In this document: one piece after another, positions 41,998 through 55,170 of the stretch
How positions within the stretch are numbered: position 1 is the stretch's first letter
Layout of the letters: the number at the start of each line of letters is the position of its first letter
Assembly (NCBI GenBank): GCA_945869475.1
Contig: CAMBOV010000002.1
Coordinates: forward strand, 62,001-126,000
Source: Singulisphaera sp. GP187
Lineage (GTDB): Bacteria > Planctomycetota > Phycisphaerae > Phycisphaerales > SM1A02
Reading direction: 5' to 3'
DNA: 64,000 nt
Position numbers and translations under genes: made by a program
The notes under the pieces: model-generated
Database searches by the model: none
What the model saw: only the letters and a program-made list of their open reading frames with translations
Told to the model about the DNA's origin: nothing

Positions 41998-42929
41998 TGA
42001 GTGACGCAATCGCTGCGACGCGCCCGCGCTTCTCGGTGGGCGTTGCTGATGCGATCTTGCTGCTGTGTGCCATCCTGTGGGGAATCGGATTTGTCTCACA
42101 GCGCATCGCAACACAACAGATGGGCGATACTCCGTTCACGTATAACGCGGCGCGATTTCTCATCGGTGGAGCACTGCTGCTGCCCTTCGTGATTCGCAAA
42201 GAGTCGGCGCGCACACGTGCGACACTCATCGGTGGCATCGCGGCGTCGATCGCGCTCTTGACTGCCGCCTCACTGCAGCAGAAGGCGATGGCAACAGTCA
42301 CTGCAGGTACGGCCGGATTCATCACGGGCACCTACGTCTTGTGGGTTCCAATTCTGGGATTACTCATTGGACAGCGCATCTCACAGCGCGTCTGGACTGG
42401 CGTCGCAATGACGCTCGCGGGACTCTGGTTTCTCTTGATGCGCGACCGCGTCGAGTTTCAATCGGGCGATCTCTATTTGTTGGGATGCGCCGTCGCGTGG
42501 GCCTTTCACGTACATGTGATTGGATGGGCCGTTCGCGCGGGCGATCCACTTGGAATCGCCGTCGTGCAGTTCGCAGTGACTGGGGCGCTCTCTGCGCTCG
42601 TCGCACTCGCAGTCGAGCCCGTCTCGATCGAAATGCTCTGTGCAGGATGGGGGCCGATCGTTTTCTCTGCGATCTTCGCGATTGCGATCGCATTCACGCT
42701 GCAGACACTCGCGCAGACATCGACACAACCCTCACACGCCGCAGTGATCTTGTCGCTCGAATCGCTCTTCGCTGAACTCTCTGGATCGCTCTGGATGCAC
42801 GAATCCTTTCAACCGCGGCAGTGGATCGGAGCGCTCTTGATGCTTGCTGGAGCGCTCGTCGCAACGGTCACTGGATTCCGCCGGCCCCCTCGCGAATCGG
42901 TTCGCCCGCAGCGACCGGCAGCGGGTTGA
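41997..42929 (+). CDS. EamA/DMT-superfamily transporter
   Basis: The 310-residue protein has ten hydrophobic helices in two EamA repeats. The first repeat opens with ADAILLLCAILWGIGFVSQR and the second with GDLYLLGCAVAWAFHVHVIG. Such proteins export amino acids, nucleotide sugars or other metabolites; the substrate is unknown. ATG 41997 shares one base with the lepB TGA, so it is coupled to lepB. The last 62 bp overlap the convergent gene at 42868-43713. Confidence 0.9.
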   Translation: MSDAIAATRPRFSVGVADAILLLCAILWGIGFVSQRIATQQMGDTPFTYNAARFLIGGALLLPFVIRKESARTRATLIGGIAASIALLTAASLQQKAMATVTAGTAGFITGTYVLWVPILGLLIGQRISQRVWTGVAMTLAGLWFLLMRDRVEFQSGDLYLLGCAVAWAFHVHVIGWAVRAGDPLGIAVVQFAVTGALSALVALAVEPVSIEMLCAGWGPIVFSAIFAIAIAFTLQTLAQTSTQPSHAAVILSLESLFAELSGSLWMHESFQPRQWIGALLMLAGALVATVTGFRRPPRESVRPQRPAAG

Positions 42930-43713
42930 TTCCAAACTTCTTCTCGATCATGACTCGCTCGAGTCGTTTGTAAGCGGCGAATCCACTTGGCCAGACGGCG
43001 ATCTCTGCGCGAAACGATTCGGGTGGCTTTCCGCCGAAGAACTGTCCGATCACCAATCGTGCCGATGCATCCTCGGTGATTGGGATGCCCGTGCCGATGG
43101 GTTCTGCGATCTCTTGCCCTTTGCCCTTGAGAACAGCGAGACTCACGCGACCATCGGCACAAAGCAGCAGGATGGCTTTGCGACTGTCGGCTCGCAACCG
43201 CGCAACGCGCACGAACTGCACCGACGTTTGTTGTTGCTTGCGCGCATCGTCGAGCTTCGCCAACTGCGTGTTGAGATTGTTGAGCTGCTCATTCGCCGCC
43301 ATCAGCGCGAGTGCGCTCGATGACAAACGCGCGCGGGCGGCTTTCTCTGCGATCACCTCTGCGAGCTTCTTCGTTCGCATCGTCTCGAGCGCCCCAAGGG
43401 ACTCCTTCCACCGACGGATAATTTCTGGATCGCCCGACGGAGGCATTGCGCAGAGCGCTGCGATCACTGTCGAGAGCTTCTCTTCGATCTTGATCGTCTC
43501 TGCTTCAAGCGTCGCAAGTTCTGCAGTCATCACGGCTGGGGTCACGGTCTTCTCTGTTCCATCTGGACTCTTCGTGAAAACAACCAGACAGAGCAAGATG
43601 AACATGATCACACCGAGCGCGTTGCAGAGCGCATCGAGAAAGAGTTCGAAGGCGTCGGTTGTCGCCGCTCCCTTTCGTCGGCGCCGGCGACGGCTTCTGC
43701 GGCGAAGACTCAT
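42868..43713 (-). CDS. ExbD/MotB-like single-helix protein with basic N-terminus
   Basis: The 281-residue protein starts with a very basic patch (MSLRRRSRRRRRRKGAA). One membrane helix follows, FLDALCNALGVIMFILLCLV, with Asp27 at its cytoplasmic end, where ExbD, TolR and MotB keep their ion-carrying Asp. An extended coiled coil (residues about 60-160) and a small C-terminal domain follow. I infer the second rod subunit of the ExbB-type channel at 44547-45419. The start overlaps the stop of the neighbouring rod gene as ATGA. The 3' end overlaps the EamA gene by 62 bp, so the two transcripts are antisense there. Confidence 0.7.
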   Translation of the reverse strand: MSLRRRSRRRRRRKGAATTDAFELFLDALCNALGVIMFILLCLVVFTKSPDGTEKTVTPAVMTAELATLEAETIKIEEKLSTVIAALCAMPPSGDPEIIRRWKESLGALETMRTKKLAEVIAEKAARARLSSSALALMAANEQLNNLNTQLAKLDDARKQQQTSVQFVRVARLRADSRKAILLLCADGRVSLAVLKGKGQEIAEPIGTGIPITEDASARLVIGQFFGGKPPESFRAEIAVWPSGFAAYKRLERVMIEKKFGINPLPVAAGEPIREGAGGIQ

Positions 43714-44528
43714 GGCCGTGCCTCGGAAGGCAGATCGAAGAACCCGCCGTCGTGTGTATCCCAGAGTTGCCATCCAACTTGGTAGCCCTGCCCTCGCACG
43801 AGGTCGCGCAAAGCATTGGACGGCGTCACTCCATCGTCGCGCACGATCAACAGCACGTACCAGCCACTGCTCGGATGCGCCTTGAGAAGTGCACCAATAG
43901 CCTCGCGCGCCGCGACCTCATCGCCGCTAGTAGTGGCAAGCGTCGCGACGAGTTTCGGCGTTCCTTGTGCGTCGAGTTCACCGACACGTGTCGCTGTCGG
44001 TGTGATCTCAATGAGCAGCGGACTCAACTGCTCGCGCTCGCCCGTTTGATACTGAACACGCGCGCGAAGTGACTTTTCAGCGAGATCGGTCTTGATCGCT
44101 CGCACCTTCTCGTTGCCGCGCTCGATCTCTCGCTGCTTCAAGAGTGTTTGGTCTTCTTGTCGCTGCGCATCACCACTCGCAGCCTCACGCGACCTCTCGA
44201 TTGCGATGAGCCCCTCTCGCTCCTTCGCGATCAGCTTCTCGAGCCGCTCGAGCTGATCCGAGGTCACCTGCGGACGCGCCTTCGCATCCGCGAGCGCGGC
44301 GGTCGCCTCTTCAAGTGCCTTGCGCGTCTCTTCGGCGCGCGCACGTGCTCCGTCGAGATCTTTACGCAACTGCTCTGACTGCCCTGGAACGCGCGCACTC
44401 GATGGAACATTGCTAAGCGGATCAAGCGCGAGAATCAAGCAGACCAGAATCATGATGCCAGTGACACACGCCATGATGTCCTGAAACGAAAAGAAGGACA
44501 TTGGCGAGACTTGATCGTGCTTCGACAT
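43710..44528 (-). CDS. ExbD/MotB-like single-helix coiled-coil protein
   Basis: The 272-residue protein begins MSKHDQVSPMSFFSFQDIMA, continuing into a helix CVTGIMILVCLILAL. Asp17 is placed like the ion-carrying Asp of MotB and ExbD. A long charged coiled coil runs over residues about 48-140, then a small alpha/beta domain with GWYVLLIVRDDGVTPS. It is 18 bp downstream of the ExbB-like gene and overlaps the other rod gene by 4 bp. I infer it forms a hetero-rod with that protein inside the ExbB-like ring. Confidence 0.75.
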   Translation of the reverse strand: MSKHDQVSPMSFFSFQDIMACVTGIMILVCLILALDPLSNVPSSARVPGQSEQLRKDLDGARARAEETRKALEEATAALADAKARPQVTSDQLERLEKLIAKEREGLIAIERSREAASGDAQRQEDQTLLKQREIERGNEKVRAIKTDLAEKSLRARVQYQTGEREQLSPLLIEITPTATRVGELDAQGTPKLVATLATTSGDEVAAREAIGALLKAHPSSGWYVLLIVRDDGVTPSNALRDLVRGQGYQVGWQLWDTHDGGFFDLPSEARP

Positions 44529-44546
44529 GGTCGGCGACTCGTGCGA

Positions 44547-45419
44547 TTACCAGTTGGTCAACTTCAAACGACTCACGATGTGGTCGTTGCAATATTGCGT
44601 GCAGTCATCCAAGAGATCTTCTTCCATCTTGTAGACGTAGGTGGTCAAGAGTTGCACCCCCACTGCGGCGACGAGCGCCACGAGCGTTGTGTTGAATGCT
44701 GTGGCCAGTCCACCGACGACGGGCGCAAGCTTTTCGCGGATCGATCCGCCACCTGCGGAGGCGCCTGTTGCAACCTCGCCACCTGAGATCACATCGGTGA
44801 AGTTTCCGATGGCGATGCCGAGTCCAAGAACAGTGCCGATGAAGCCGAGCACTGGGATCGTCCAGATGAGCGCGCGAATGGCGGTGTACGAAGAGTCGAT
44901 CGTGCTCGAGTCACTATCGGCTTGTGCGTCGAGCACCGCTCCGACATCGCGCACCTCTCCGATGTTGCCGAGATTCGAGAGTGCCATCGAGACGCGATTG
45001 AAGAGTAGAAAATCTCGAGGACGGCTGACCCGTTGCTTGATGCGCTGCAAGATTTCGCCCGAGGTTCCAGGCGAGAGCACGAAGTCGCCGCGGCGTGGAA
45101 AGATGTCGACGAGGTCGAGCGCCCGCCGCTGCACGCGAATCTTGAAGAGCTTCGCGACCAGAATGCACAGACACCACCAGGTAAAGAGGATGCAGAACCA
45201 GTTCGTTTGCCATCCTGTTGCAATGATCTGCTCGAAGTAACTGCCCTGAAATGGAATCAGTGCGAGCCACGACAAGATGCTCAGCGCCAAGGCGATCGCG
45301 AACCAAAATGGACCGTGTGTTCGTGTGTAACGACCGGTGGCAAATCCGATCATGCATTCGATGTCGCCATCGCGTGCGTCCATCGGAGTCGTGCGTGTTG
45401 CGTCGTTCGTTGTTGTCAT
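44547..45419 (-). CDS. MotA/TolQ/ExbB proton-channel family protein
   Basis: The 290-residue protein has four hydrophobic segments: two near the N-terminus (FWFAIALALSILSWLALIPF and NWFCILFTWWCLCILVA) and the paired conserved helices. The third is ALIWTIPVLGFIGTVLGLGI and the fourth GGLATAFNTTLVALVAAVGV. This P-x-x-G-x-x-G-T-V-x-G pattern defines the MotA/TolQ/ExbB family, whose rings use the ion gradient to drive rotation of ExbD- or MotB-type rods. The ATG overlaps the upstream gene's stop as ATGA. Two candidate rod genes lie immediately downstream. Confidence 0.92.
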   Translation of the reverse strand: MTTTNDATRTTPMDARDGDIECMIGFATGRYTRTHGPFWFAIALALSILSWLALIPFQGSYFEQIIATGWQTNWFCILFTWWCLCILVAKLFKIRVQRRALDLVDIFPRRGDFVLSPGTSGEILQRIKQRVSRPRDFLLFNRVSMALSNLGNIGEVRDVGAVLDAQADSDSSTIDSSYTAIRALIWTIPVLGFIGTVLGLGIAIGNFTDVISGGEVATGASAGGGSIREKLAPVVGGLATAFNTTLVALVAAVGVQLLTTYVYKMEEDLLDDCTQYCNDHIVSRLKLTNW

Positions 45420-46537
45420 GGGGTCGAGTCCTGTGGTGTGTGCGCCTGCTGATCAGGTGCGGGATGGGTTGACGGTTGGATGAACCGAAGTTCACAGTAG
45501 GAAACGTACGCGCAGATCGACGCGAGTGCTGTGATCGAGAGTGCGCGCACTGCTTCGAAGAGTGCCATGCGTGGCGCTCCCATGATGTATGCGGTGATGG
45601 CTTCGGCAAGCACTGCGAGCACGACTGCGACGAGTGTCACCATCGCGAGCCAGAGGATGGCGGTGCGCTTTGGCACTTCGCCGGCGGCGAAAACCGCGCC
45701 GACCGAGCAGGTCACCGCTGCGACGACAACGAAGAACCAGGTCACCAGAAATGGCACGCCCTTCAAAACGACTCCAACGATCGCGATGAGCAGCGCGGCC
45801 ATCGACAGAGAGAGGCCGATTGCCGTCTCGCCCAACGTGATCGCTGGGTGCTGCATGCGAAAAGCGATCGTTGATCGACCAAAGAGAGTCGCGTCGAGCA
45901 ATCGCACGGCGCAGAACGCGAGCACGAGCAGAGTGGCTGCCAGAAATCCAGTTCCCGCACCCGACCAGAGTGCGACAGCGGCGATGAGCACCGCGAGTGA
46001 TCCGAAGACAAGTCCACTGATTGCGCGCACCCTTCCCTTCGACAGTGTGCTCATGCCGAGCGCGGTCGCAGCGATGAGCAGCATCACGAGCCAGAGCACA
46101 CCGAGCAGGGCGCCGCGCCATCCAAAGCCATCGACAAGTTGCATGAGATCCCATGCGCGAAGTGTTGCTGTTGAATCGCGCACTGTCGGCAAAAGTGCCG
46201 CGACGGCGATCACGATCCACGCGGGCACAAGAATCCACTCCGCGCGCACCATGGCGATTCCTGGCAGTTGAATCAACAATGGCTCGCCCTCGTCGTCGGG
46301 ATATTCGACCATGAATCGACGCTCGAGTGGCGCGACACTGAGAAGCTCACTACAGACGCTGCCGTCGCTGCGAAAAATATCGCTCGCTTTCGATGCGACG
46401 CACCACTGCGTTCGATCACGCGAGACCATGTGCAGGCGGGTGAGTGCACCGCGCGTCGCTCGCAGTCGCACCTCACTGAGCGAGAGTGGTCCCTCAGTGC
46501 GCGTGCCGAGTCGAATCCAGTACGTCGGTTCGCTCAC
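45416..46537 (-). CDS. Polytopic membrane protein with N-terminal GYF-like domain
   Basis: The 373-residue protein starts with a GYF_2-like domain (YWIRLGTRTEGPLSLSEVRL, later RTQWCVASKASDIF), a small peptide-binding module. About eight to nine membrane helices follow from residue 100 on. The start is GTG at 46537, abutting the TAA of the upstream coiled-coil gene with no gap. Planctomycetes often place GYF_2 domains on membrane proteins. It is probably the membrane scaffold linking the GTPase/GAP1 proteins to the channel subunits, which is inference from context. Confidence 0.7.
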   Translation of the reverse strand: MSEPTYWIRLGTRTEGPLSLSEVRLRATRGALTRLHMVSRDRTQWCVASKASDIFRSDGSVCSELLSVAPLERRFMVEYPDDEGEPLLIQLPGIAMVRAEWILVPAWIVIAVAALLPTVRDSTATLRAWDLMQLVDGFGWRGALLGVLWLVMLLIAATALGMSTLSKGRVRAISGLVFGSLAVLIAAVALWSGAGTGFLAATLLVLAFCAVRLLDATLFGRSTIAFRMQHPAITLGETAIGLSLSMAALLIAIVGVVLKGVPFLVTWFFVVVAAVTCSVGAVFAAGEVPKRTAILWLAMVTLVAVVLAVLAEAITAYIMGAPRMALFEAVRALSITALASICAYVSYCELRFIQPSTHPAPDQQAHTPQDSTP

Positions 46538-49465
46538 TTATTTCTCGGTGGTGAGTGGCGCGGGGCCATCGATCCATGATCCCGCGAAGATGACACTGCC
46601 GCTCGGCAGTGATCGTGCGACAGTGTTGTAGCGAGGCGATCCATCAGCCTGCACCGAACCAACCTCGACGACACGTGCAGGCAAAGTGCTCGGTGCTGCA
46701 ACGGCGTACAACTTCTCGCCCGTCTTGAGCTTCATGCGACCAGCGAAGAGCACAACCGTTGAACTCGACGTTCGATCGAGAATGCCAACGCATCGCAATC
46801 GGCTCGCGAGCCACCGCGTGACCGTCGACGTCTGAGCAGATTGCGCCTTCACCCAATCAGCAAGCGGCAGCGCGCTCACAAGTAACTCTTGGATGCGCTT
46901 GTAGTCAACCCGTTTCGTTGGATTCCCAGGCGCGAGCCAATCGATCCCTTCGAGATCTTCTTCATCAAAGAAGGTGATCGCGCGGTCGATTCCCTTGGTG
47001 TGTTGTGGCAGGCCGGCGCGCATCTCGCCGAACAATCCTTTGATGAGATAGGCACGGGCGACTGGATCGACGGTCGCATCGTCTCGGATCATCTTGACCA
47101 CCTCGAGCGCACCCTCAGGAGTTGTCGTCGCATTGGTTCCGCGAATCAGCGGTAGCAACCGCGTGCGCAACTTCGTCTGCGGGCTCTCACCTTCACTCTT
47201 GATTCGCTTGCGCTCAATGCGAACTGGACCCTTCTTCTCATCCTTCCAACTCGTCACGACGGTGTAGACGTCGACGTTTGGCGTGGAGGTCGGCTTTGGA
47301 AGATCTCCTGGAGAGAAGTAATACCGTTCGCCTGAGTCGAGCTCGATCATGTTCATCGTCATCGGAGTCCAACTACTCAGAATGTTGTTGAGCCAGCTGG
47401 CCCATCCCTTGCTGTCAGCCAACAACGCGCTGTACACCCCAATCGCCGGAGCCAAGATGCTCGCGCGATACTTCGACTGAAAGCGTTCGAGGCCGAGTCG
47501 AATCTCATCGCGGTCTTGGGCGAGCGGAGGGAATGGAACCTTTGCGAGTGTGGGAGCGAGTGCGAGCCACGCAAGCACCGGACGCCACGCCGTCGCTTGA
47601 CTCGCCGCCTCTCGAAAGTCAGCGGCATAGGCAGAGTCGGGATGTGCATCGGCGAACTCTGCGAGCAGCACCTCAAGGCGATCTGGATCGCTCGACGCTG
47701 CGACGAGCGTCGCGAGGCTCGTCGCTTCTGTCGCCTCCTTGATCGCACGCGCGGACTCATGGGCCGCGAGTTCGCGTGATCCTCTGAGCCGTGCCCTTTG
47801 CACCTCGAATGCGGCGCGCGCCTCTTTTCCGATCGAACTCGACGATCCGATGTTCGCGGCAAGAATCTCGACTCGTTCGAGTGCTGCACCTGACTCTTCG
47901 CTCAGCGGCGCCATCGACGAGAGTGCGTCGATCTGCGCCGCCAGGCTCTTGACCTGCGTCAAGAAAGCGTTGTCGCGAGCCTGTTGTGTGCGAACATCGG
48001 CGGCCTCACGGGCGTCACGCCACGCGTGCACCCGCTCTCGGTGCGCATCGGTGCGCGCCAACTGCGCCGCGACTTCGATCGATGCTGCTTGGGCATTCGA
48101 GACCGTTGCGTCTCCCGCGGCCGCAAACGCCGAGTCAAATCGCGCGTCTTGCTCGATGTCGTTCTGCTGCGCCTGCGCGAGACGCGACTGTGCTTCGAGC
48201 ACGCGAGCATCTTGGGCGAATCCATCCACTGCGGCCTGTGATTGCGCGAGAAGCCGAGCACACTCGCCGTCATCACGACGATCGACGGCGGCCGCGAAGG
48301 CTTCGACGAACTGCGTTTGTCTCTGCGCCGCAAGCATGTCAAGTGTGAGCCAGATTGCAGTCGCGAGCACCGCCGCGATCGCTGCGCCACCACCAACAAA
48401 CTTCATCGTGCGTGCCACGCGAACGCGCGTCGAATGTTCATCAACGCGACGCTGCGCAAGTTCACGCAGTTCGTCTGGAACCCCGCCAGGCATGCGCTCC
48501 GCTTGCACAAGTCGCGCCTGAATGTCATCGGCCGACGAATTGCCATCGATCGCGACTCGCTCGAGTCCATCCATCTGCGAACGGGTCTCGTGTGCGAGTT
48601 GCATTTCGCTTTCGCGAGTGACCATCCACTCAACGATCGGTCGAACCATCTCGGATGGCTGCTGCGGCAACGTCATCCCACCTCGCGCGGCGATTACGCA
48701 GAGGCCATCCCACTCTTGTAAGTTCTCACGCACGCCATTGAAGGACTCGGCCATGTGGTTCGCGTGCATCTCCTGCGCCAGCGCCACGGCGCGCTCTGCC
48801 GCCTGCGCGGCCTGCGCAGACCAGAGTTCTTTCTCGCATCGATCGGCTGATTGTTGTGCTTCGCGTCGCACCCATTCTTCGAGCCGAAGTGTGTCGACGA
48901 TCTCTTGAGCCTCCTCGAGTCGCTCATGCTTGATCGCCAACGCGAAGGTCGACTTCAGTTCGCGAATCGAATCGACTTCGAATTGATCGATGTCATCCTT
49001 CCACATTGGATTGGTTGCATCTCGCTTGGCAATCAAGCGAAGAGTGCGCAATCGCTGATGGGATGGAGCCAGGGCGAGATTCTGCTGACGATAGATCGCA
49101 TGGAGTTGCTCGAATCGATCTGCGAGGAGTGCGTTGAGCGCCTCCTGTAATTCGGCAACCGTTTCTTCTGAGATTCGCGCCGGAACGGTCAATTGATTTG
49201 CCTTGCAGAACTCTCGCCACTTCGCTGCCGCAGGTGTGACGAAAAGCGTTGCGGTTTCGATGAGTGGTGGCCGCGCCTCTGCGATCGAGCGCACTTCCAT
49301 GCGCAGTCCACGACGAGCGCACTCGGTCGCCTGACTCAGCCGCCCGCGAAGTTCGCTTGTGACCTCTGCGTACTGCATCGAAATCTGCTCGACCGCACTG
49401 CGTTCGGTGATTCCGTGTTCGAGGACGCGCTCAGCTCGTTCAATGACTTCTCGTGGGCGTGGCAT
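46538..49465 (-). CDS. Large coiled-coil protein with one membrane helix
   Basis: I do not recognise this 975-residue protein. The N-terminal 350 residues are Ala/Glu/Arg-rich helices likely to form coiled coils in the cytoplasm. One membrane segment (FVGGGAAIAAVLATAIWLTL, about residues 355-378) follows. Outside lies another long helical region and a C-terminal beta-rich domain containing ELDSGERYYFSPGDLPK. It ends directly before the GYF-like gene. Size and topology suggest a structural or lever component across the envelope, analogous to tail proteins of other ExbB-driven machines, but no homology is claimed. Confidence 0.7.
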   Translation of the reverse strand: MPRPREVIERAERVLEHGITERSAVEQISMQYAEVTSELRGRLSQATECARRGLRMEVRSIAEARPPLIETATLFVTPAAAKWREFCKANQLTVPARISEETVAELQEALNALLADRFEQLHAIYRQQNLALAPSHQRLRTLRLIAKRDATNPMWKDDIDQFEVDSIRELKSTFALAIKHERLEEAQEIVDTLRLEEWVRREAQQSADRCEKELWSAQAAQAAERAVALAQEMHANHMAESFNGVRENLQEWDGLCVIAARGGMTLPQQPSEMVRPIVEWMVTRESEMQLAHETRSQMDGLERVAIDGNSSADDIQARLVQAERMPGGVPDELRELAQRRVDEHSTRVRVARTMKFVGGGAAIAAVLATAIWLTLDMLAAQRQTQFVEAFAAAVDRRDDGECARLLAQSQAAVDGFAQDARVLEAQSRLAQAQQNDIEQDARFDSAFAAAGDATVSNAQAASIEVAAQLARTDAHRERVHAWRDAREAADVRTQQARDNAFLTQVKSLAAQIDALSSMAPLSEESGAALERVEILAANIGSSSSIGKEARAAFEVQRARLRGSRELAAHESARAIKEATEATSLATLVAASSDPDRLEVLLAEFADAHPDSAYAADFREAASQATAWRPVLAWLALAPTLAKVPFPPLAQDRDEIRLGLERFQSKYRASILAPAIGVYSALLADSKGWASWLNNILSSWTPMTMNMIELDSGERYYFSPGDLPKPTSTPNVDVYTVVTSWKDEKKGPVRIERKRIKSEGESPQTKLRTRLLPLIRGTNATTTPEGALEVVKMIRDDATVDPVARAYLIKGLFGEMRAGLPQHTKGIDRAITFFDEEDLEGIDWLAPGNPTKRVDYKRIQELLVSALPLADWVKAQSAQTSTVTRWLASRLRCVGILDRTSSSTVVLFAGRMKLKTGEKLYAVAAPSTLPARVVEVGSVQADGSPRYNTVARSLPSGSVIFAGSWIDGPAPLTTEK

Positions 49466-49468
49466 GGT

Positions 49469-50422
49469 TTAGTTTCCTATTATTGTTGTCACGATTGCGT
49501 AGACACGGCCACTTGCCGTATCTGTTGCTCGAATGCGCAACACTGCTGTGAGTGTGGGAAGTCGCTCTGACTCGACCTGTTCTTTGAGCGCCGCGATCTT
49601 GAGTGTGGTCGCCGCATTTTCTTGTTCGAGAATTCGGCGCTGGGCGTCTGGAAGTGACGGGGCCAGTTTCTTGTTCTCGACCAATTGCGTGGTGAGTTCA
49701 CGCATCTCGAGCAGTCGTGGAGAGCGCTGCATCACGGTGCATTTTCCCCCCGCAAGCATGACTACGAATGCGTGGCCGTCGAGTGTGCCTGTGGCTCCGC
49801 CTGCCTCTGCACTCGTGGTGATCCACGTCGCTCCAGAGATTCGCTCGACTGTGACAATGGCGTCCGCGGCAACAGTCGTGGTCTCAACGGATCCCAAGAG
49901 GATCCCATCTGTCTGCATCGTGACCGAGAGTGCGAGTTCACTCGGTGGTGGGCAGAGCACAAGGACTCGTCCATCAGTGAGCGTCGCGACGAACGCGCTC
50001 GACGAAAAGTAGTTGCGAAGTTGTTTCATGCCACCGCCCACATCGACCGCCGGAAAAGTGTTCCATGTCCACGTGAGGAGTGCGCCATCCCATGAGAACT
50101 TCCCCGCTTCGACCGGTTTCTTACCAGTGTTTCGTTTCATTCGCAGCACGAGTGCCTTGTCGACTGCATCGAACGAAAAATTCTCGCCCGCTGGAAGTGA
50201 TGGATATGCGGCGATCGACGCAATCTCTCCAGGCAGCGTTCCACACGCCACCGAAGCCGAGGTGACTTGTTTGAAACCATCAACGACGACGGTGAAGACC
50301 CTCGCTGGAACGACGTGCATAATCGGCGGCGCCGTCTCGTCGCCAGTGATCGCGCTCGCAGGCGCGCAGAGCATGAGCAGACTCGACCACCATGCCGCGC
50401 GCGAGAATCCAGCGGCACTCAT
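49469..50422 (-). CDS. Secreted protein related to the GAP1 extracytoplasmic region
   Basis: The 317-residue protein begins with a signal peptide (FSRAAWWSSLLMLCAPASAI). It contains beta-rich segments LLTWTWNTFPAVDV and FVATLTDGRVLVLCPPP, then an amphipathic C-terminal helix region and a last strand TLTAVLRIRATDTASGR. The pattern of a W-containing strand, a charged helix and A-x-L-x-D-G strand also occurs in the extracytoplasmic half of the adjacent GAP1-like protein, so the two may be paralogous. The ATG overlaps the GAP1 gene stop as ATGA. Function unknown; probably a periplasmic partner. Confidence 0.7.
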   Translation of the reverse strand: MSAAGFSRAAWWSSLLMLCAPASAITGDETAPPIMHVVPARVFTVVVDGFKQVTSASVACGTLPGEIASIAAYPSLPAGENFSFDAVDKALVLRMKRNTGKKPVEAGKFSWDGALLTWTWNTFPAVDVGGGMKQLRNYFSSSAFVATLTDGRVLVLCPPPSELALSVTMQTDGILLGSVETTTVAADAIVTVERISGATWITTSAEAGGATGTLDGHAFVVMLAGGKCTVMQRSPRLLEMRELTTQLVENKKLAPSLPDAQRRILEQENAATTLKIAALKEQVESERLPTLTAVLRIRATDTASGRVYAIVTTIIGN

Positions 50423-52713
50423 GGAGTGATCCCCTTCAACTCTTCAAACTTCAGTTGGCGAATTGTCAGGCGAACTGGAACGCCTTGTGTGGTGGCGATG
50501 AGCGCTTCCCATTGATCGAGCGTGCGCATGTTCGCCTTCGCGTTGACAAACGCGGTGCGTGCGGCGACGAGTGATTCTTTGGTGGCGAGCGCTTCTGTCT
50601 TTGCGTTGACGAGCCTCTCGGCTGCGCCTGTCGACTTGTCGGTGAGTGCTGTTGTGACTGTCGCTTGTGCATCCTGCGATCGCGCCTGCGCACGTTCGAC
50701 GATCTCTTTCAGAGCCACTGGATCATTCGCTGCGTTCACCTGAAACGTCATGTGGCACTTCGATGCCTTTCGCACAAGTGTGAGCGTGCCCACGTCGACG
50801 AGCCCGCCACGTGCCTTCACTTCAACCGCGACAGCGCGACTCGTCTGCGACGCGGAATCCCAGCCAATCCACTCATTTCCGTTTAGTGAATACTGCCAGG
50901 GAGCACTTGCCACTGCGATCGTGGTGACTGCTGCCGCATCACTAACAACTGTGGTGGGGATCTTCTTCCATGTGAACCAGAGGCTCGTTCCATCGGCGAG
51001 CTCTGCGACGAGTGGCACCTGCTCGAGCGCGGCGACTGCATCCGCGTGAAGTTTGGGATGGCGCCGCACCACCGCGCCTTGAGCGCACCAACTGAACTGC
51101 GCTTGTGATCCATCGACGGTGATCGTTGCGAGCGTTTGAACCACACCACTTGCGTCTTTGCGCGCGAAGGCGCCACTCTCTGGAAACTCAAACTCGCCGA
51201 CGACCCGCTCTGGAGCCGCCACCCACCCGAATGAGATCACCTGCGCCTGACCGTCGGCTCCGCCGATCGAGAATGTGCCTCTGCCATTCCACGACTCATC
51301 GTTCTGTTTGTTCGGACTGGGAATCTCCATCATCTTCCACTCACTCACGCGCGTAGGCATCGTTGATTGCTGCACGCTCGGCGAAATCTGGCCGACTCCG
51401 ATGCGCTCCGTCGGTGGTGGCGCATCTGTCGGCTGCTCAAGAGTTGGTTGTGGGTCGGGCTCAACTCGCGCACTTGGCACTGGATCAGCGGCGACTTCAA
51501 CATCAGCCGAAGCCGCAACCTCCACATCGCGCTTCATGGGCAGAAGTGCTGGACCTTCAATCGTGGGTTTCGTTGGCGCGACAACAGCCGGCACTTGTGA
51601 CTGTGTTTGCGCTGGTGTTTGCGCTGGTGTTTGCGCTGGTGTTCCCACCGAGTTCGCGCGCAGTGACCACCAATAGAGACCTGCAGCGCACGCGATGAGC
51701 GCAACGACAATCCATGCGCCCACCAACACTCTTCGAACGACCTTGCGAACCTCTTCCTCGCGATCGGTGACGTACTCCACGCCGAAGACGACGGTTGGCT
51801 CTTCGACTTGTTTCTCTTTGAGTGGCGGAGGTCGCTTTGGAGTCGCGACGGCAACCCCATGTGTCGTCGCGCGCGCACGCGTGCCACCACCGCTCGAGTC
51901 CCCACCCCCGCTCTCTCGCTCAACCTCACCATGTCGCGCGCGATCGATAAATGTTCCACTCTGTGTGCAGGGATGGCGCGCACAGAGATCGACGACCGTG
52001 CCACTACTTGCGCGCGCTGCGACAGCCGCTTCGGTGCCGTCGAGACAGAAACGCCATGCGCATCGCACACCCGCCATCGGTTGCATGAAATAGGTCGTGA
52101 ATGTCACGCGCCAGCGCCAATGTGTTGGGAGCAGCGCGAGCGCCTCACTCACAAGTTCGAGTACTGGCGCACCAGCGGGATAGATGATCGAGCATGACTT
52201 CGATGGATCGATCATCACAACGTTTGCGATGACCCCCGCCCATCCAGCGTCGCCGCAGACTCCTTCCCATGTCGAGCAACGCTGCGCCGCTGGCAGTGTC
52301 GCGCATGGAAGCGCGCGCTCAGTGTCGATCAATCGAGGTTCGCCATCCCATGCCCGGGCCATCACTCCTGGCTGCGCGAGAATCCACGCGGGCCCCGTGT
52401 TACTCAATTCATCTTCGCGAAGCAGGAGGTGGTGCGCAAACTTGTTGTTGCGCAGTGTGTGATCGGGTCTCGCAGCGCCGACCGCAGAGAGCACATGACG
52501 CTCGACGCCACCAGCATCGACGATCCAGTGCGACCAAGCGGTGGGAGAGTCTTCGATCGACATGCCATCGTGAGGCGGCCGGTATCCAGAGAGTGCTTCG
52601 AGTCGCGGCACGAAGGGCGTTGGAAATCCGCGCGTCATCGCTACGGTGCAGAATCCGCTTGTTTGCGGTTTCAGACCCCGTGGTGCCGATGTATAGAACA
52701 GTTCAAGTGCCAT
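50419..52713 (-). CDS. GTPase-associated protein 1 (GAP1)-like membrane protein
   Basis: The 764-residue protein opens MALELFYTSAPRGLKPQTSG and continues FCTVAMTRGFPTPFVPRLEA. It has the block NNKFAHHLLLREDELSNTGP (residues about 67-87), which I recognise as the N-terminal domain of GTPase-associated protein 1 (GAP1-N2). One membrane helix lies at about 325-348 (LVGAWIVVALIACAAGLYWW), then a Pro/Gln/Thr-rich linker with tandem AQTP units and an extracytoplasmic beta/coiled-coil region. I start at ATG 52713, where family members begin; it overlaps the GTPase gene by 11 bp. It should couple the GTPase to parts outside the membrane. Confidence 0.8.
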   Translation of the reverse strand: MALELFYTSAPRGLKPQTSGFCTVAMTRGFPTPFVPRLEALSGYRPPHDGMSIEDSPTAWSHWIVDAGGVERHVLSAVGAARPDHTLRNNKFAHHLLLREDELSNTGPAWILAQPGVMARAWDGEPRLIDTERALPCATLPAAQRCSTWEGVCGDAGWAGVIANVVMIDPSKSCSIIYPAGAPVLELVSEALALLPTHWRWRVTFTTYFMQPMAGVRCAWRFCLDGTEAAVAARASSGTVVDLCARHPCTQSGTFIDRARHGEVERESGGGDSSGGGTRARATTHGVAVATPKRPPPLKEKQVEEPTVVFGVEYVTDREEEVRKVVRRVLVGAWIVVALIACAAGLYWWSLRANSVGTPAQTPAQTPAQTQSQVPAVVAPTKPTIEGPALLPMKRDVEVAASADVEVAADPVPSARVEPDPQPTLEQPTDAPPPTERIGVGQISPSVQQSTMPTRVSEWKMMEIPSPNKQNDESWNGRGTFSIGGADGQAQVISFGWVAAPERVVGEFEFPESGAFARKDASGVVQTLATITVDGSQAQFSWCAQGAVVRRHPKLHADAVAALEQVPLVAELADGTSLWFTWKKIPTTVVSDAAAVTTIAVASAPWQYSLNGNEWIGWDSASQTSRAVAVEVKARGGLVDVGTLTLVRKASKCHMTFQVNAANDPVALKEIVERAQARSQDAQATVTTALTDKSTGAAERLVNAKTEALATKESLVAARTAFVNAKANMRTLDQWEALIATTQGVPVRLTIRQLKFEELKGITP
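51601..51646. repeat. Tandem 12-bp coding repeat in the GAP1-like gene
   Basis: Three to four copies of GCTGGTGTTTGC encode a PAQT-type repeat (read on the minus strand) in the linker just outside the membrane helix. Copy number may vary between strains. Confidence 0.85.
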
Positions 52714-54004
52714 CGGCGATTGGCGTTTGAGAGGTATCGGCGTTTGGATCACGGGTCGATCCGACGACTTTGCCCCACCGCGAGAATTCATAGATGAACG
52801 GCACGGTCACCCACCACGGATCGATCTGGGATGCCCTCATCTTCAACATACCGCTCGCATTTTCAATTTGTGGCGAGACGCCTGTCGCACTCACTGGCAC
52901 ATACAGCACCCGAAGTGCCGTATCGCGCACAGCGGAGACAAACTCGGGGACGATCTCTGCCAGTAGTGCTTCGAGTCGATCGCTCACCCGTTCAACGCGC
53001 AATTTGTCGACGACTCCCAAGACTCCACCATCGTCGCGCTCATCAATCGCGTAGGGATCGGTGCGGATGTTCTCTCCTGGCAACAAGCTTGCCCAAATGT
53101 CACTCTTGGTGACGACGATGGTCAGCGGCTGGCGCAGTTTTTCGTCGGCGGGCATTCCTGAATGCAGTCGCACGCGCGACGCCATCTCAAGCAACACGAT
53201 GTCTTGACGAAATGCGCGCGCCAACTGTCCGAGTTGCGGATCGGTACTTCGCCCACGCAACCGCGCACGAAAGCGCGCATCTTGCGTTGGGTCAAAGACG
53301 AAGAGAAGATTCTTCGAACGGGCAAGATGCTGTGTTGTTGGAGAGAGCGGACTCTCGGACCCAGGCAAGAAATGCTCTCCCGCGTTGTCATAGAGACAGA
53401 GAACCTCGGTCAACTTCGTCGCGCCGCGCGCGTTGACATGTTGCGCCGTCGGTCGAATCGTGAAGAGGTAGGGCTGGGGAAGATTCGTCGCCTGACCCGG
53501 CTCGAGCTGCACTGTGTCGTAGGCCGATCCCTCAAGTTGGGTCTTCTCTAGAAAGACCAATTTCTCTGGATCATCCTGCAAGAAGAGTTGTTGCTCGTTC
53601 GACGTCAACACACGATTCGAGACTGGATCGGCGTCTGAAAATGCGAGCGCGAAGGTCTTGCCGAGTCGCTGTCGCAACTGCCACGCGCACGAGGTAAGAA
53701 AATAGCTCTTGCCGCTGCTGGGAGTTCCGACGATCGAGAGAATGCGTGTTGGGTGTTCGAGCAGCACATTGGCGATGCCCAAGTGGCAACGGGGGCAAGC
53801 GAGACTCTGGCAGGTTGATCCACGCTCATCAATAGCGGCCCCTGCAGTAGTGAACCGCGATGGAAGAAACCGCAGTGGATCATCCGCCGAAAGCACTGGA
53901 TCGCCGCGCAAATCGGGGTGGGTTGCGATCCAGAGCACATCCTCGACGGAAAACTTGTTCCAGCAATGCGGGCACTGCAACTTCGAGAGTAGTTTGCGAC
54001 GCAA
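52703..54004 (-). CDS. Zinc-ribbon TRAFAC-like GTPase partnered with GAP1
   Basis: The 433-residue protein has an N-terminal zinc ribbon (Cys11 and Cys14 in CPHC, Cys70 and Cys73 in CPRC). A GTPase domain follows with G1 GTPSSGKS (93-100), G3 DNAG (206-209), G4 TKSD (299-302) and a late SAT segment likely to be G5. The architecture resembles the Double-GTPase-type proteins found beside GAP1. The start is TTG at 54004 with GGAGG 4 nt upstream. It is the first gene of the nine-kb unit and overlaps the GAP1-like gene. It acts in the cytoplasm, perhaps at the membrane. Confidence 0.82.
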   Translation of the reverse strand: MRRKLLSKLQCPHCWNKFSVEDVLWIATHPDLRGDPVLSADDPLRFLPSRFTTAGAAIDERGSTCQSLACPRCHLGIANVLLEHPTRILSIVGTPSSGKSYFLTSCAWQLRQRLGKTFALAFSDADPVSNRVLTSNEQQLFLQDDPEKLVFLEKTQLEGSAYDTVQLEPGQATNLPQPYLFTIRPTAQHVNARGATKLTEVLCLYDNAGEHFLPGSESPLSPTTQHLARSKNLLFVFDPTQDARFRARLRGRSTDPQLGQLARAFRQDIVLLEMASRVRLHSGMPADEKLRQPLTIVVTKSDIWASLLPGENIRTDPYAIDERDDGGVLGVVDKLRVERVSDRLEALLAEIVPEFVSAVRDTALRVLYVPVSATGVSPQIENASGMLKMRASQIDPWWVTVPFIYEFSRWGKVVGSTRDPNADTSQTPIADGT

Positions 54005-54096
54005 CGAACCTCCGAATCGGGTTTTGGCGGTGCGTGAGAATCAGAGTTGAACCCACGACCGTAGTAGTACGAGCAGAACCGCTGAAATGCTAACCG
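54005..54096. promoter_or_regulatory. Divergent promoter region of the GTPase and VWA genes
   Basis: The 92-bp gap must hold the promoters for the GTPase operon (minus) and the VWA gene (plus). I see no clear -10/-35 pair. GGAGG on the minus strand (54009-54013) serves the TTG start. Confidence 0.35.
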
Positions 54097-55170
54097 ATGC
54101 CGAGTGAACAACCACATTTCGACGCGACGACTGAGTCACCGATCGAGCCACCACTCGACTCGCCAATCGAGCCTTCGCGACCCATTCCAAAGTCGTATCG
54201 GACCAAGGGTCTGCCGTCGATCACCTTCATCTTGGCGCTCTTGCTCTTTTTCGCATGGTGGGCTGAATCTGATCTCTTGAGTGAAGAGCCCTCGGAAGAT
54301 GAAAAGTCCGGCCCCGCGTTCGTCGGAGGTGGTGGACCGCCCGGCGGGTCAGATGGTGCGGGAGGTGGCCCAGGGGCTGGAACCACCGGCACAGAGACTG
54401 CACTCGAATCGCCCGACCCCGATGGCAAACCGCTCGGAGATGCGAATACTGATCTCAGCCAAGCCTCGCCCACCGTCAGCGGAAACGACGCCGATGAGAC
54501 GACGCGGGTGCTGCCTCGCATCGGCTTTACTCCACCCGATGAACCGCCGGTGAAAGCGCCAATTGTTGCGCCCGTGCTCGTGGCTGCGGCTGGCAAAGGC
54601 AAGGGAGGCAAGTCTGGGGTGATGGGTGGATCTGGAACCTCGTTCATGGGTGTCGAGACCTCGGCAGAGCGCGTCGTCTACATCCTCGATTTCTCAGGGA
54701 GCATGTTTGGAGCGCGTAGTAATCCCAAGGTCGATCACGTGCTTCTCGAACTCAAGAAGAGTGTGAATCGACTGCCTTCGGGTCACACGTTCTATGTGAT
54801 CTTTTTTGACGATCAAGAGTTAGCGATGCCGACTCCTTCGATGGTCCCGGCAAACAATTCAAACAAAAAAACCTATTTTCGATGGGCAGATACTGAATCG
54901 GTCGGCGTTTCAGCCCGCGGCGGTACAGATCCCAGCGGCGCGCTCGCCCTCGCGTTATCGACACTCAAACCCGACGCGATCTACCTGCTGACCGACGGGG
55001 GCTTTGATCCGACCAAGTCTTTCGCAGCGATCACCAAGTTCAATCCGGGTCACGAGGTTGAGATCAACACCGTGGGTTTTCACGACAAGGGTGGCGAGTC
55101 GGTCTTGCGGCAGATCGCACTTGAGAACCACGGTGAGTATATGTACATCCCTCCGCCGCAGAATCCCTGA
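54097..55170 (+). CDS. VWA-domain membrane protein
   Basis: The 357-residue protein has one membrane helix near residues 42-57 (ITFILALLLFFAWW). A Gly/Pro/Thr-rich linker (about residues 70-185) leads to a von Willebrand A domain with an intact MIDAS: DFSGSM near residue 200, GGTDPSG for the Thr, and LTDGGF for the second Asp. It should bind a divalent metal and a protein ligand outside the cytoplasm. It is divergent from the GTPase gene with a 92-bp gap, so it is likely part of the same locus. It is convergent with xylA, 21 bp away. Confidence 0.85.
   Translation: MPSEQPHFDATTESPIEPPLDSPIEPSRPIPKSYRTKGLPSITFILALLLFFAWWAESDLLSEEPSEDEKSGPAFVGGGGPPGGSDGAGGGPGAGTTGTETALESPDPDGKPLGDANTDLSQASPTVSGNDADETTRVLPRIGFTPPDEPPVKAPIVAPVLVAAAGKGKGGKSGVMGGSGTSFMGVETSAERVVYILDFSGSMFGARSNPKVDHVLLELKKSVNRLPSGHTFYVIFFDDQELAMPTPSMVPANNSNKKTYFRWADTESVGVSARGGTDPSGALALALSTLKPDAIYLLTDGGFDPTKSFAAITKFNPGHEVEINTVGFHDKGGESVLRQIALENHGEYMYIPPPQNP

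Follow-up and report, generated by a model that had tools for sequence, protein, structure and literature searches.

Within a stretch of 64,000 nucleotides from Singulisphaera sp. GP187 (GenBank assembly GCA_945869475.1, contig CAMBOV010000002.1, positions 62,001 to 126,000; hereafter the window), we analyzed a locus in which a Zn-ribbon GTPase, its partner protein GAP1 and the helical membrane protein CC are encoded together with an ExbB-type channel subunit and two rod-like proteins. The locus is real and conserved, and the engine part attached to its GTPase-GAP1-CC core is exchangeable. We read it, with moderate confidence, as a GTPase-switched trans-envelope engine, powered in this case by an ion motor of the 5:2 type whose two rods differ. 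An earlier note on this DNA had proposed an ion-motor-coupled envelope machine at the same place, and since the genes co-occur and the GAP1 and GTPase assignments hold in profile searches, the latter through relatives, this is still a good reading. What that note could not see are the PilB-type and PilM outputs to which this core is joined elsewhere.

Loci with this order of genes are found again in the genus, in the family and in distant Planctomycetota, a kind of conservation that the earlier note said would support a system, and this recurrence is more than chance. GAP1 was matched in 15 of 41 genomes, including the window's own. Among the 19 genomes of the genus, eight hold an orthologous locus (some cut by contig ends), five a divergent type-2 locus, whose GAP1 is about 30% identical to that of the window, and six neither by GAP1 search. 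Gene order is kept among the orthologous loci, and most of their outer neighbours are shared too. No genus genome carries both locus types (0/19; chance 0.04 if kinship is ignored), while we do not press this mutual exclusion because relatedness is unaccounted for and some genomes are incomplete. In five genus genomes that lack the orthologous block, the two outer neighbours are found close to each other: in G001 they converge, as they do in the window, with 200 bp between them, in G007, G011, G012 and G015 about 0.9 kb apart and on one strand, and all five carry a type-2 locus elsewhere.

At the level of the phylum, neighbourhoods of 20 kb were fetched and profiles were built iteratively on these same loci, so weak coiled-coil matches were ignored. 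GAP1-N2 was found in 29 of 292 phylum genomes (28 over the cut-off), and a close ExbB (at least 330 bits; the next match scores 230 bits) in 16 of 292. The earlier note had considered that homologues of these genes might rarely co-occur; however, GAP1-N2 is matched as well in 13 of the 16 genomes that hold a close ExbB, below the cut-off in G289 and on another contig in G259. In G304, one of the three exceptions, the contig begins inside CC and consequently the genes upstream are not visible. The full order GTPase-GAP1-CC-ExbB-rod-rod, mostly with a GYF-domain protein, was recovered in distant genomes, for example at L071, L072, L073, L074, L076, L077 and L078.

An alignment scan with the GTPase yielded 528 relatives, of which the best 80 by similarity to the window GTPase were kept; these fall in Planctomycetota and Lentisphaerota/Verrucomicrobiota, and due to this choice shares among the 80 loci are not unbiased. 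GAP1 follows the GTPase in 70 of the 73 loci with room by a script rule and in 72 by inspection: in L120 and L157 the open reading frame (ORF) of GAP1 overlaps the start rule, and L154 has none. Wherever the sequence went on for at least 7 kb beyond the GTPase (50 loci), CC was present, and on this evidence it is the third constant component of the core beside GTPase and GAP1. One record among the relatives, L111, is labelled Chitinophaga pinensis and holds a GTPase nearly identical to planctomycetotal ones; it is probably a mislabelled assembled genome.

What follows CC differs between loci. Engines were counted in loci with CC and at least 2.5 kb beyond, which left 39 planctomycetotal and 11 lentisphaeral loci of the 80. 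In the planctomycetotal loci, CC is followed by ExbB in 24 cases, by a fusion of GYF_2 with T2SSE, a PilB/GspE-type ATPase, in five, never by both, and by neither in ten. In the lentisphaeral loci, ten carry a PilM-like protein and none ExbB. T2SSE scored 317–325 bits in the four fusions scanned (L070, L135, L137, L148) and PilM_2 57–84 bits in three scanned proteins, and the remaining fusion and PilM loci were assigned by similarity to these; the fusion gene of L153 is cut by a contig end. Judging from their lengths, CC and GAP1 both lack their periplasmic half in loci that have a cytoplasmic ATPase as engine; this relation is limited by some loci with a long CC and no ExbB and by type-2 loci with ExbB and a short GAP1. 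In the 24 loci with ExbB, median lengths are 972 aa for CC and 836 aa for GAP1; with PilB (six loci), both have a median of 377 aa, and three short CC proteins aligned to profile positions 2–369 of 977, i.e., they end at the transmembrane (TM) helix. With PilM (ten loci), CC measures 1020 aa and GAP1 311 aa, and a TM helix is present in two of the ten. In the own genome, PilM_2 is also matched at G000:C15:6365-7378 (81.8 bits) and G000:C24:18748-19347 (30.8 bits); this model matches in many control genomes as well.

In a tree of 60 GTPases, rows with ExbB are spread widely, those with PilB form one group (100) inside a set containing ExbB rows, and those with PilM form one group (99) adjoining the ExbB row L076. 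Seven engine changes are required versus 22.5 in shuffles. The tree was made by a quick method with SH-aLRT support only and contains several long branches. On the simplest reading, the ion motor would have come first and been replaced at least twice, whereby we infer the direction of change, since the root of the tree was not inferred.

The locus occupies 42868-55170, as previously given, and its tight spacing was confirmed as well (from the GTPase to rod 2, intergenic distances are -11, -4, 3, 0, -4, 18 and -4 bp). However, instead of nine genes in one direction there are eight on the minus strand, and nine are reached only by counting the divergent VWA gene on the plus strand, 92 bp upstream of the GTPase end of the operon (Table 1). 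GAP1 probably starts at the ATG at 52713, giving 764 aa, and rod 2 at the ATG at 43713, giving 281 aa; the longest ORF of the former and the ORF of the latter listed from 43773 probably overstate them. The genes of rod 2 and rod 1 overlap by 4 bp. In a Pfam scan of the window proteins, cut-offs were passed by GAP1-N2, GAP1-M, MotA_ExbB and VWA_3, DO-GTPase2 (24.1 versus 27 bits) and GYF_2 (17 versus 25.8 bits) stayed below, and SEC317, CC and both rods gave no meaningful match. Scanning 53900–54200 for promoters and terminators found none. At 42868–42929, the 3' ends of rod 2 and of a convergent DMT-type transporter gene overlap by 62 bp. The own genome comprises 2.55 Mb in 32 contigs.

Table 1. 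Genes of the locus, in window coordinates, and alternative engines that follow CC in related loci.
Feature	Position	Strand	Remarks
GTPase, Zn-ribbon TRAFAC-type (DO-GTPase2 family)	52703..54004	-	433 aa, TTG start
GAP1	50419..52713	-	cytoplasmic GAP1-N2 + GAP1-M head, one TM helix, fast-evolving periplasmic part
SEC317	49469..50422	-	317 aa, predicted secreted
CC	46538..49465	-	975-aa bitopic helical membrane protein
GYF-domain protein	45416..46537	-	polytopic membrane region
ExbB (MotA/TolQ/ExbB-type channel subunit)	44547..45419	-	290 aa
rod 1	43710..44528	-	single TM, N-terminal FQD motif, coiled coil, small C-terminal domain
rod 2	42868..43713	-	single TM with invariant Asp, coiled coil, small C-terminal domain
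VWA protein, membrane-anchored	54097..55170	+	TM 38-56, Gly/Pro-rich linker, VWA domain
GYF_2-PilB/GspE-type ATPase fusion	L137:13806-15695, L070:10259-12247, L135, L148, L152, L153, L156		directly after GTPase-GAP1-short CC
PilM-like protein	L138, L143, L155, L159, L161, L164, L165, L168, L175, L176		directly after GTPase-GAP1-CC; Lentisphaerota/Verrucomicrobiota

The GTPase had been described as a Zn-ribbon protein with intact G1, G3 and G4 motifs, and this description holds. Invariant in 20 of 20 aligned members are C11, C14, C70 and C73 of the Zn ribbon, G98-K99, D206-N-A-G209-E210, K300 and D302; G1, G3 with an extra Glu and G4-like residues are thereby retained, and the protein shows the TRAFAC combination of a Glu in Walker B (D206-x-x-G209-E210) and a Zn ribbon. 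The doubt that GTPase and GAP1 might fail in profile searches was not borne out: GAP1 passes, and while the window GTPase itself is just under the cut-off, DO-GTPase2 matches 18 of the 20 members at E≤0.1 (best 1.4e-10), so that the predicted assignment holds via relatives. Among PDB sequences, the GTPase profile had designed ankyrin proteins on top, which we take as chance, and Der/EngA and Obg as weak matches (E 0.1–0.6). One of the 20 GTPases bears an FHA domain (Pfam E 3.9e-11); judged by the N-terminal extension, it is that of L078 (L078:4068-5987).

GAP1 is, as had been proposed, a GAP1-like membrane protein (GAP1-N2 83.1 and GAP1-M 47.8 bits; cut-offs 24), and at E≤0.1 these domains match 21/21 and 18/21 family members. 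Its name stands for GTPase-associated protein 1 in passages of PMC7159879, and does not denote a shown GTPase-activating protein. The structure model is confident over residues 1–265 (block-mean pLDDT 83–97 over 1–260), and for this head Foldseek gave TagF chains as best matches (probability 0.87–0.99, E 0.01–0.09). Among the 50 rows listed by a VIA fold comparison, the ten placed on residues 1–270 are all TagF (three) or longin/DENN-type regulators of small GTPases (seven); families beyond these rows may match as well. The TagF rows, one titled PA0076, reached Z 8.2 (at 8% identity), 5.3 and 5.2, followed by DENND1B, DENND1A and DENND10 with 7.4, 6.9 and 6.5, whose ranges run on to 747–748, while Lst4 and FLCN-FNIP2 scored 4.2 and two GATOR1 rows 4.1 and 3.9. 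It is the agreement among these rows, rather than any single Z, that suggests a likeness, and we predict a longin/DENN-like head at middling scores; by sequence profile, the head matched nothing among PDB sequences and in NCBIfam. Such a head would give reason to expect direct control of the GTPase by GAP1, whereby no particular activity is implied. According to passages of PMC3521125, the origin of longin domains was traced to roadblock proteins like MglB, while DENN and d-DENN have so far been seen only jointly, as parts of the DENN module.

The periplasmic part of GAP1 is predicted to contain an Ig-like region at 455–583 (Z 3.8–4.8) and a helical hairpin. Compared with the two nearest orthologues, identity is 89/87% for the GTPase, 80/78% for the GAP1 head and 46/43% for the periplasmic part, and such fast evolution is as expected of a part facing a changing environment. 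In L073 and L074, one GTPase is flanked by two full-length GAP1 paralogues.

For the motor, the proposed ExbB/MotA channel was readily confirmed: ExbB matches MotA_ExbB (29.1 bits versus a cut-off of 22.9), aligns with the other four ExbB-type proteins of the own genome (hhalign 93.6%) and keeps T196, T244 and T245 in 22 of 22 members, and the only matches of its profile among PDB sequences were two TolQ (E 0.29). F15-Q16-D17 of rod 1 is invariant in 22/22 and D27 of rod 2 (281-aa numbering) in 21/21; the invariant Asp of each sits at the start of the single TM helix and would correspond to the essential TM Asp of ion-driven 5:2 motors. Both rods are paralogues (hhalign 99%). As ExbD/MotB by profile they were rejected, with hhalign ≤0.8% against six ExbD of the own genome and ≤2.4% against ten MotB, and no ExbD or MotB family was among the Pfam matches listed, up to 25 families. 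Thus the label ExbD/MotB-like, under which they had been introduced, applies only by position, topology and the invariant TM Asp. The best 60 matches of each rod among PDB sequences were mostly coiled coils and designed proteins. We infer a heterodimer of rod 1 and rod 2 in a motor of the 5:2 type. The search for MotB_plug gave no match in any of the 16 genus genomes covered but succeeded in all 10 genomes from the order's other families, which makes a flagellar nature of this motor unlikely.

Below the close ExbB proteins, a tier of 172–230 bits (L237-L241) comprises longer ExbB ORFs of about 540–600 aa with rod relatives, whereby only the first rod was found in L239. No GTPase, GAP1 or CC was found there, and within Planctomycetota these loci may form a two-rod motor family of their own. 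That GTPase and GAP1 are missing from L233-L241 was judged on all ORFs of at least 90 aa and by tblastn.

The TM helix of CC lies at 357–375 by hydropathy, where the structure model is of low confidence; the model as a whole (mean pLDDT 86.6) is helical over 4–352 and 381–703 and mixed helix/strand beyond. Its fold gave no PDB match at E≤1e-3, and its sequence only short, chance-like matches there. Orthologues of SEC317 were recovered from 7 of the first 47 loci (E<1e-6), and further relatives from later loci; a copy of the GAP1 periplasmic part was ruled out (blastp E 1.4, hhalign 0.2%). While the polytopic protein misses the GYF_2 profile in the window, the predicted GYF assignment holds via relatives, as four of five proteins scanned from the same slot (L071, L073, L077, L082) score 71–92 bits and L024 17.8; two additional GYF genes score 40 bits (L073) and 49 bits (L140). 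At L026-L028, the GYF protein was not found. An extra protein stands between ExbB and the rods in L073 and L074, with GYF_2 in L073.

The VWA protein was correctly placed as divergent at 92 bp; to count it among the fixed parts of the machine, however, goes too far, since it adjoins the GTPase in L021-L023, L025, L030 and L031 and is displaced in L026-L029, and is thus a variable neighbour. It matches VWA_3 (29 bits, cut-off 27), and its MIDAS-type residues D198, S200, S202 and D300 are invariant in 11/11. The helix 38–56 holds no His, and thus no SHLS motif, and no Asp either; a published SHLS transducer and an Asp-bearing VWA rod were thereby ruled out.

How does this locus relate to described systems? 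The GTPase/GAP1 family was proposed from sequence to form conflict systems with variable effectors and membrane association (Kaur et al. 2020, PMC7159879). For planctomycetes, that publication already has the GTPase, GAP1 and a GYF protein joined to trypsin or to a TM-rich region. Its passages agree with our locus in the Walker B Glu and N-terminal Zn ribbon of the GTPase, the adjoining GAP1-N2/GAP1-M partner, the membrane association, the planctomycete setting and GYF; L071 and L140 hold a GYF-trypsin protein. In contrast to the systems as described in those passages, here a motor with two rods, CC as third constant component and the swapping of engines are added. An FNIII-repeat protein, not one of the two conserved components named there, is said to accompany GAP1-N2; FNIII gave no Pfam match in the nine window proteins, while GAP1 has the predicted Ig-like region at 455–583. 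The main text, with figures and source data outside the search, contains no occurrence of exbb, tolq, mota, biopolymer or proton channel, and none of longin, DENN, TagF, PilB, PilM, pilus or GspE. Literature on planctomycete TolQ with GTPase yielded nothing on coupling of a GTPase to an ion motor, and for DO-GTPase/GAP1-N2 the relevant items were PMC7159879 and PSP-systems work, in whose passages no experiment appears.

The closest working analogue appears to be MglA/MglB-AglRQS of Myxococcus, where a small GTPase and a roadblock-domain regulator act on the motor; by the tests run, it is not homologous. As passages of the respective papers report, MglA stimulates type IV pili as well as gliding (PMC9481161), the gliding motor has one TolQ (AglR) with two TolR-type proteins (PMC3169522), CglB is a surface VWA protein of the gliding machinery (PMC13104615), and whether AglQ and AglS form a heterodimer is not settled (PMC9389320). 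Common to both, including the Glt part, are a GTPase and a regulator over a TolQ-plus-two-rods motor, pilus-type parts and a VWA protein. However, neither MglA nor roadblock families matched the window proteins in Pfam (E≤0.1), and while AglQ/AglS match PF02472, the window rods are without ExbD homology. Another likeness exists to loci of the PVC group, where passages of PMC12204202 describe a TolQ-like gene with paired TolR-like genes, a TPR gene and a VWA transducer. Those TMH-VWA loci also have one TolQ-like gene, two different rods and a TM-anchored VWA protein with disordered linker; they differ from ours in the SHLS His, and ours in rods outside the ExbD profile and in the addition of GTPase, GAP1 and CC. 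Two other loci of the own genome, L199 (G000:C16:28000-46000) and L200 (G000:C9:10000-28000), hold one ExbB and two ExbD each. Inspection by eye further shows in L200 large proteins and a TM-anchored protein whose helix contains a His, and this locus looks closer to the published PVC VWA kind.

If the locus is a GTPase-switched trans-envelope engine, the GTPase would cycle on the cytoplasmic face, and the longin/DENN-like head of GAP1 would set its nucleotide state according to what the variable periplasmic part senses. The GTP state would let CC, together with GYF, engage or release the engine. An ExbB pentamer would surround the rod 1-rod 2 heterodimer, which would turn with ion flow, and the periplasmic parts of the rods would act on the periplasmic half of CC, on SEC317 and on the VWA protein, so that surface or wall-bound proteins may be moved or loaded. 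By analogy, we favour surface adhesion or movement, or delivery of adhesive material, as the most likely use, while this is the least supported step. A wider proposal, which we put forward only tentatively, is that GTPase-GAP1-CC might be a general bacterial controller of engines (ion motor, PilB/GspE-type ATPase, PilM), with CC as a clutch that loses its periplasmic half with a cytoplasmic ATPase, and GAP1 as a bacterial counterpart of eukaryotic longin-DENN regulators.

Several observations weigh against a GTPase-switched engine. The rods fail the ExbD/MotB profiles although the control, ExbD against MotB in the same hhalign test, succeeds with 77–85%. G088 and G172, which belong to one genus, have a CC-like protein (4e-19, 5e-23), a close ExbB and both rods, but no GTPase or GAP1 in the 20 kb fetched. 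Conversely, L034, one of the two type-2 loci of G001, has CC without ExbB or rod on 6 kb, and type-2 loci keep ExbB despite a short GAP1 (344–346 aa). Downstream of CC, ExbB and the GYF-T2SSE fusion are both missing from ten of the 39 planctomycetotal loci, and in seven of these no engine was identified. L162 and L163 belong to the ten and have ExbB and rods in an adjacent upstream copy; their tandem arrangement consists of CC-GYF-ExbB-rod-rod and a second rod pair upstream of a GTPase-GAP1-CC-GYF unit. In L122, also scored as neither, a T2SSE frame follows CC directly, and upstream (L122:3758-18250) lie an FHA-like T2SSE protein, two T2SSF forming a Tad-like set, and GYF and FHA-like genes. 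The T2SSE/T2SSF search covered nine genomes with neither engine or without PilM, and only the genes of L122 were placed in a locus, by matching coordinates and frame lengths; contig numbers of the others were matched in part, so that such genes may be present in those loci too. With 11–19 T2SSE genes per genome, the T2SSE in L122 could be chance. For GAP1, Foldseek gave nothing at E≤1e-3, and the single fold scores of its head, with Z from 8.2 to 3.9, are only middling and may have arisen by coincidence. Finally, the contacts among the components are putative.

Alternatively, the locus might be a conflict system against phages or other invaders: variable envelope parts would sense the invader and cause the GTPase to switch, and the motor would be a sensor or effector like that of Zorya. 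We consider this possible but rather unlikely. GAP1-N2 systems were proposed as such in passages of PMC7159879, a background to which the earlier note had rightly pointed, the periplasmic parts evolve fast, and the block is present or absent between outer neighbours that lie close together in the five genus genomes without it. Furthermore, a ZorA model matches 19 of 22 ExbB members and a ZorB model 9 of 22 first rods (E≤0.1; best E for the rods 6e-4). However, coiled-coil families match the rods equally well or better, and the ZorA matches are not specific because PADLOC holds no TolQ controls; signs of defence were not found here, as PADLOC gave only weak motor and coiled-coil likeness. With ZorAB, as described in passages of PMC11890865, the locus shares a 5:2-type ion motor with TM Asp, but its ExbB of 290 aa is without the long ZorA tail and a GTPase is added. 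Zorya itself was ruled out, since Pfam and PADLOC scans found no peptidoglycan-binding rod domain and no ZorC/D or E effector, and neither nuclease nor helicase effector is part of the operon. Searched against 50,697 phage and 72,556 plasmid records, the GTPase gave no match, by which a mobile element was ruled out as well, and the chromosomal neighbours are mostly the same across orthologous loci.

Less probable in our view is a regulated export or surface-fibre machine, whose engine drives secretion or assembly of an adhesive polymer in a pilus-, T2SS- or TagF/T6SS-like manner, with VWA or SEC317 as cargo or cap. The alternative engines indeed come from pilus and secretion families, as the T2SSE and PilM_2 scores given above illustrate, T2SSE and T2SSF proteins lie beside the core in L122, and TagF, the best Foldseek match of GAP1, is known from type VI secretion. 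However, Pfam found no secretin, pilin or platform gene among the nine window proteins, two proteins of L159 and one of L165 beyond PilM gave no pilus-family match, and the TagF match combines its Z of 8.2 with hardly any sequence identity. In L159, a protein following PilM has a weak TonB-like proline-rich match below the cut-off.

An envelope-maintenance motor like Tol-Pal, always running and coordinated by the GTPase with growth or division, is very improbable. An ExbB-type channel would fit, and passages of PMC12204202 propose VWA as force transducer beside TolQ and a TolR-like pair in the PVC group; but 11 of the 19 genus genomes gave no orthologous block (five carry a divergent type elsewhere, six neither by GAP1 search, some of these incomplete), the own genome has the two other loci with one ExbB and two ExbD, and the window VWA is without the SHLS His. 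That unrelated envelope genes merely neighbour each other is hardly credible: SEC317, GYF and VWA do vary among loci, but the core order is kept across the phylum, a recurrence which contradicts this explanation.

Taken together, the named engine parts, i.e., ExbB with two rods, a PilB-type ATPase and PilM, give the GTPase/GAP1 family a concrete output and a testable mechanism. The system can be tested since named isolates with the ExbB type exist, namely Rhodopirellula solitaria CA85 (L125) and Stieleria tagensis TO1_6 (L170). If our reading of a GTPase-switched engine is true, it would be, as far as known, the second case after Myxococcus MglA of a GTPase switch shared by a gliding-type ion motor and pilus-type machinery. 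If the head of GAP1 is truly longin/DENN-like, the family would furthermore bear on the origin of eukaryotic GTPase regulators.

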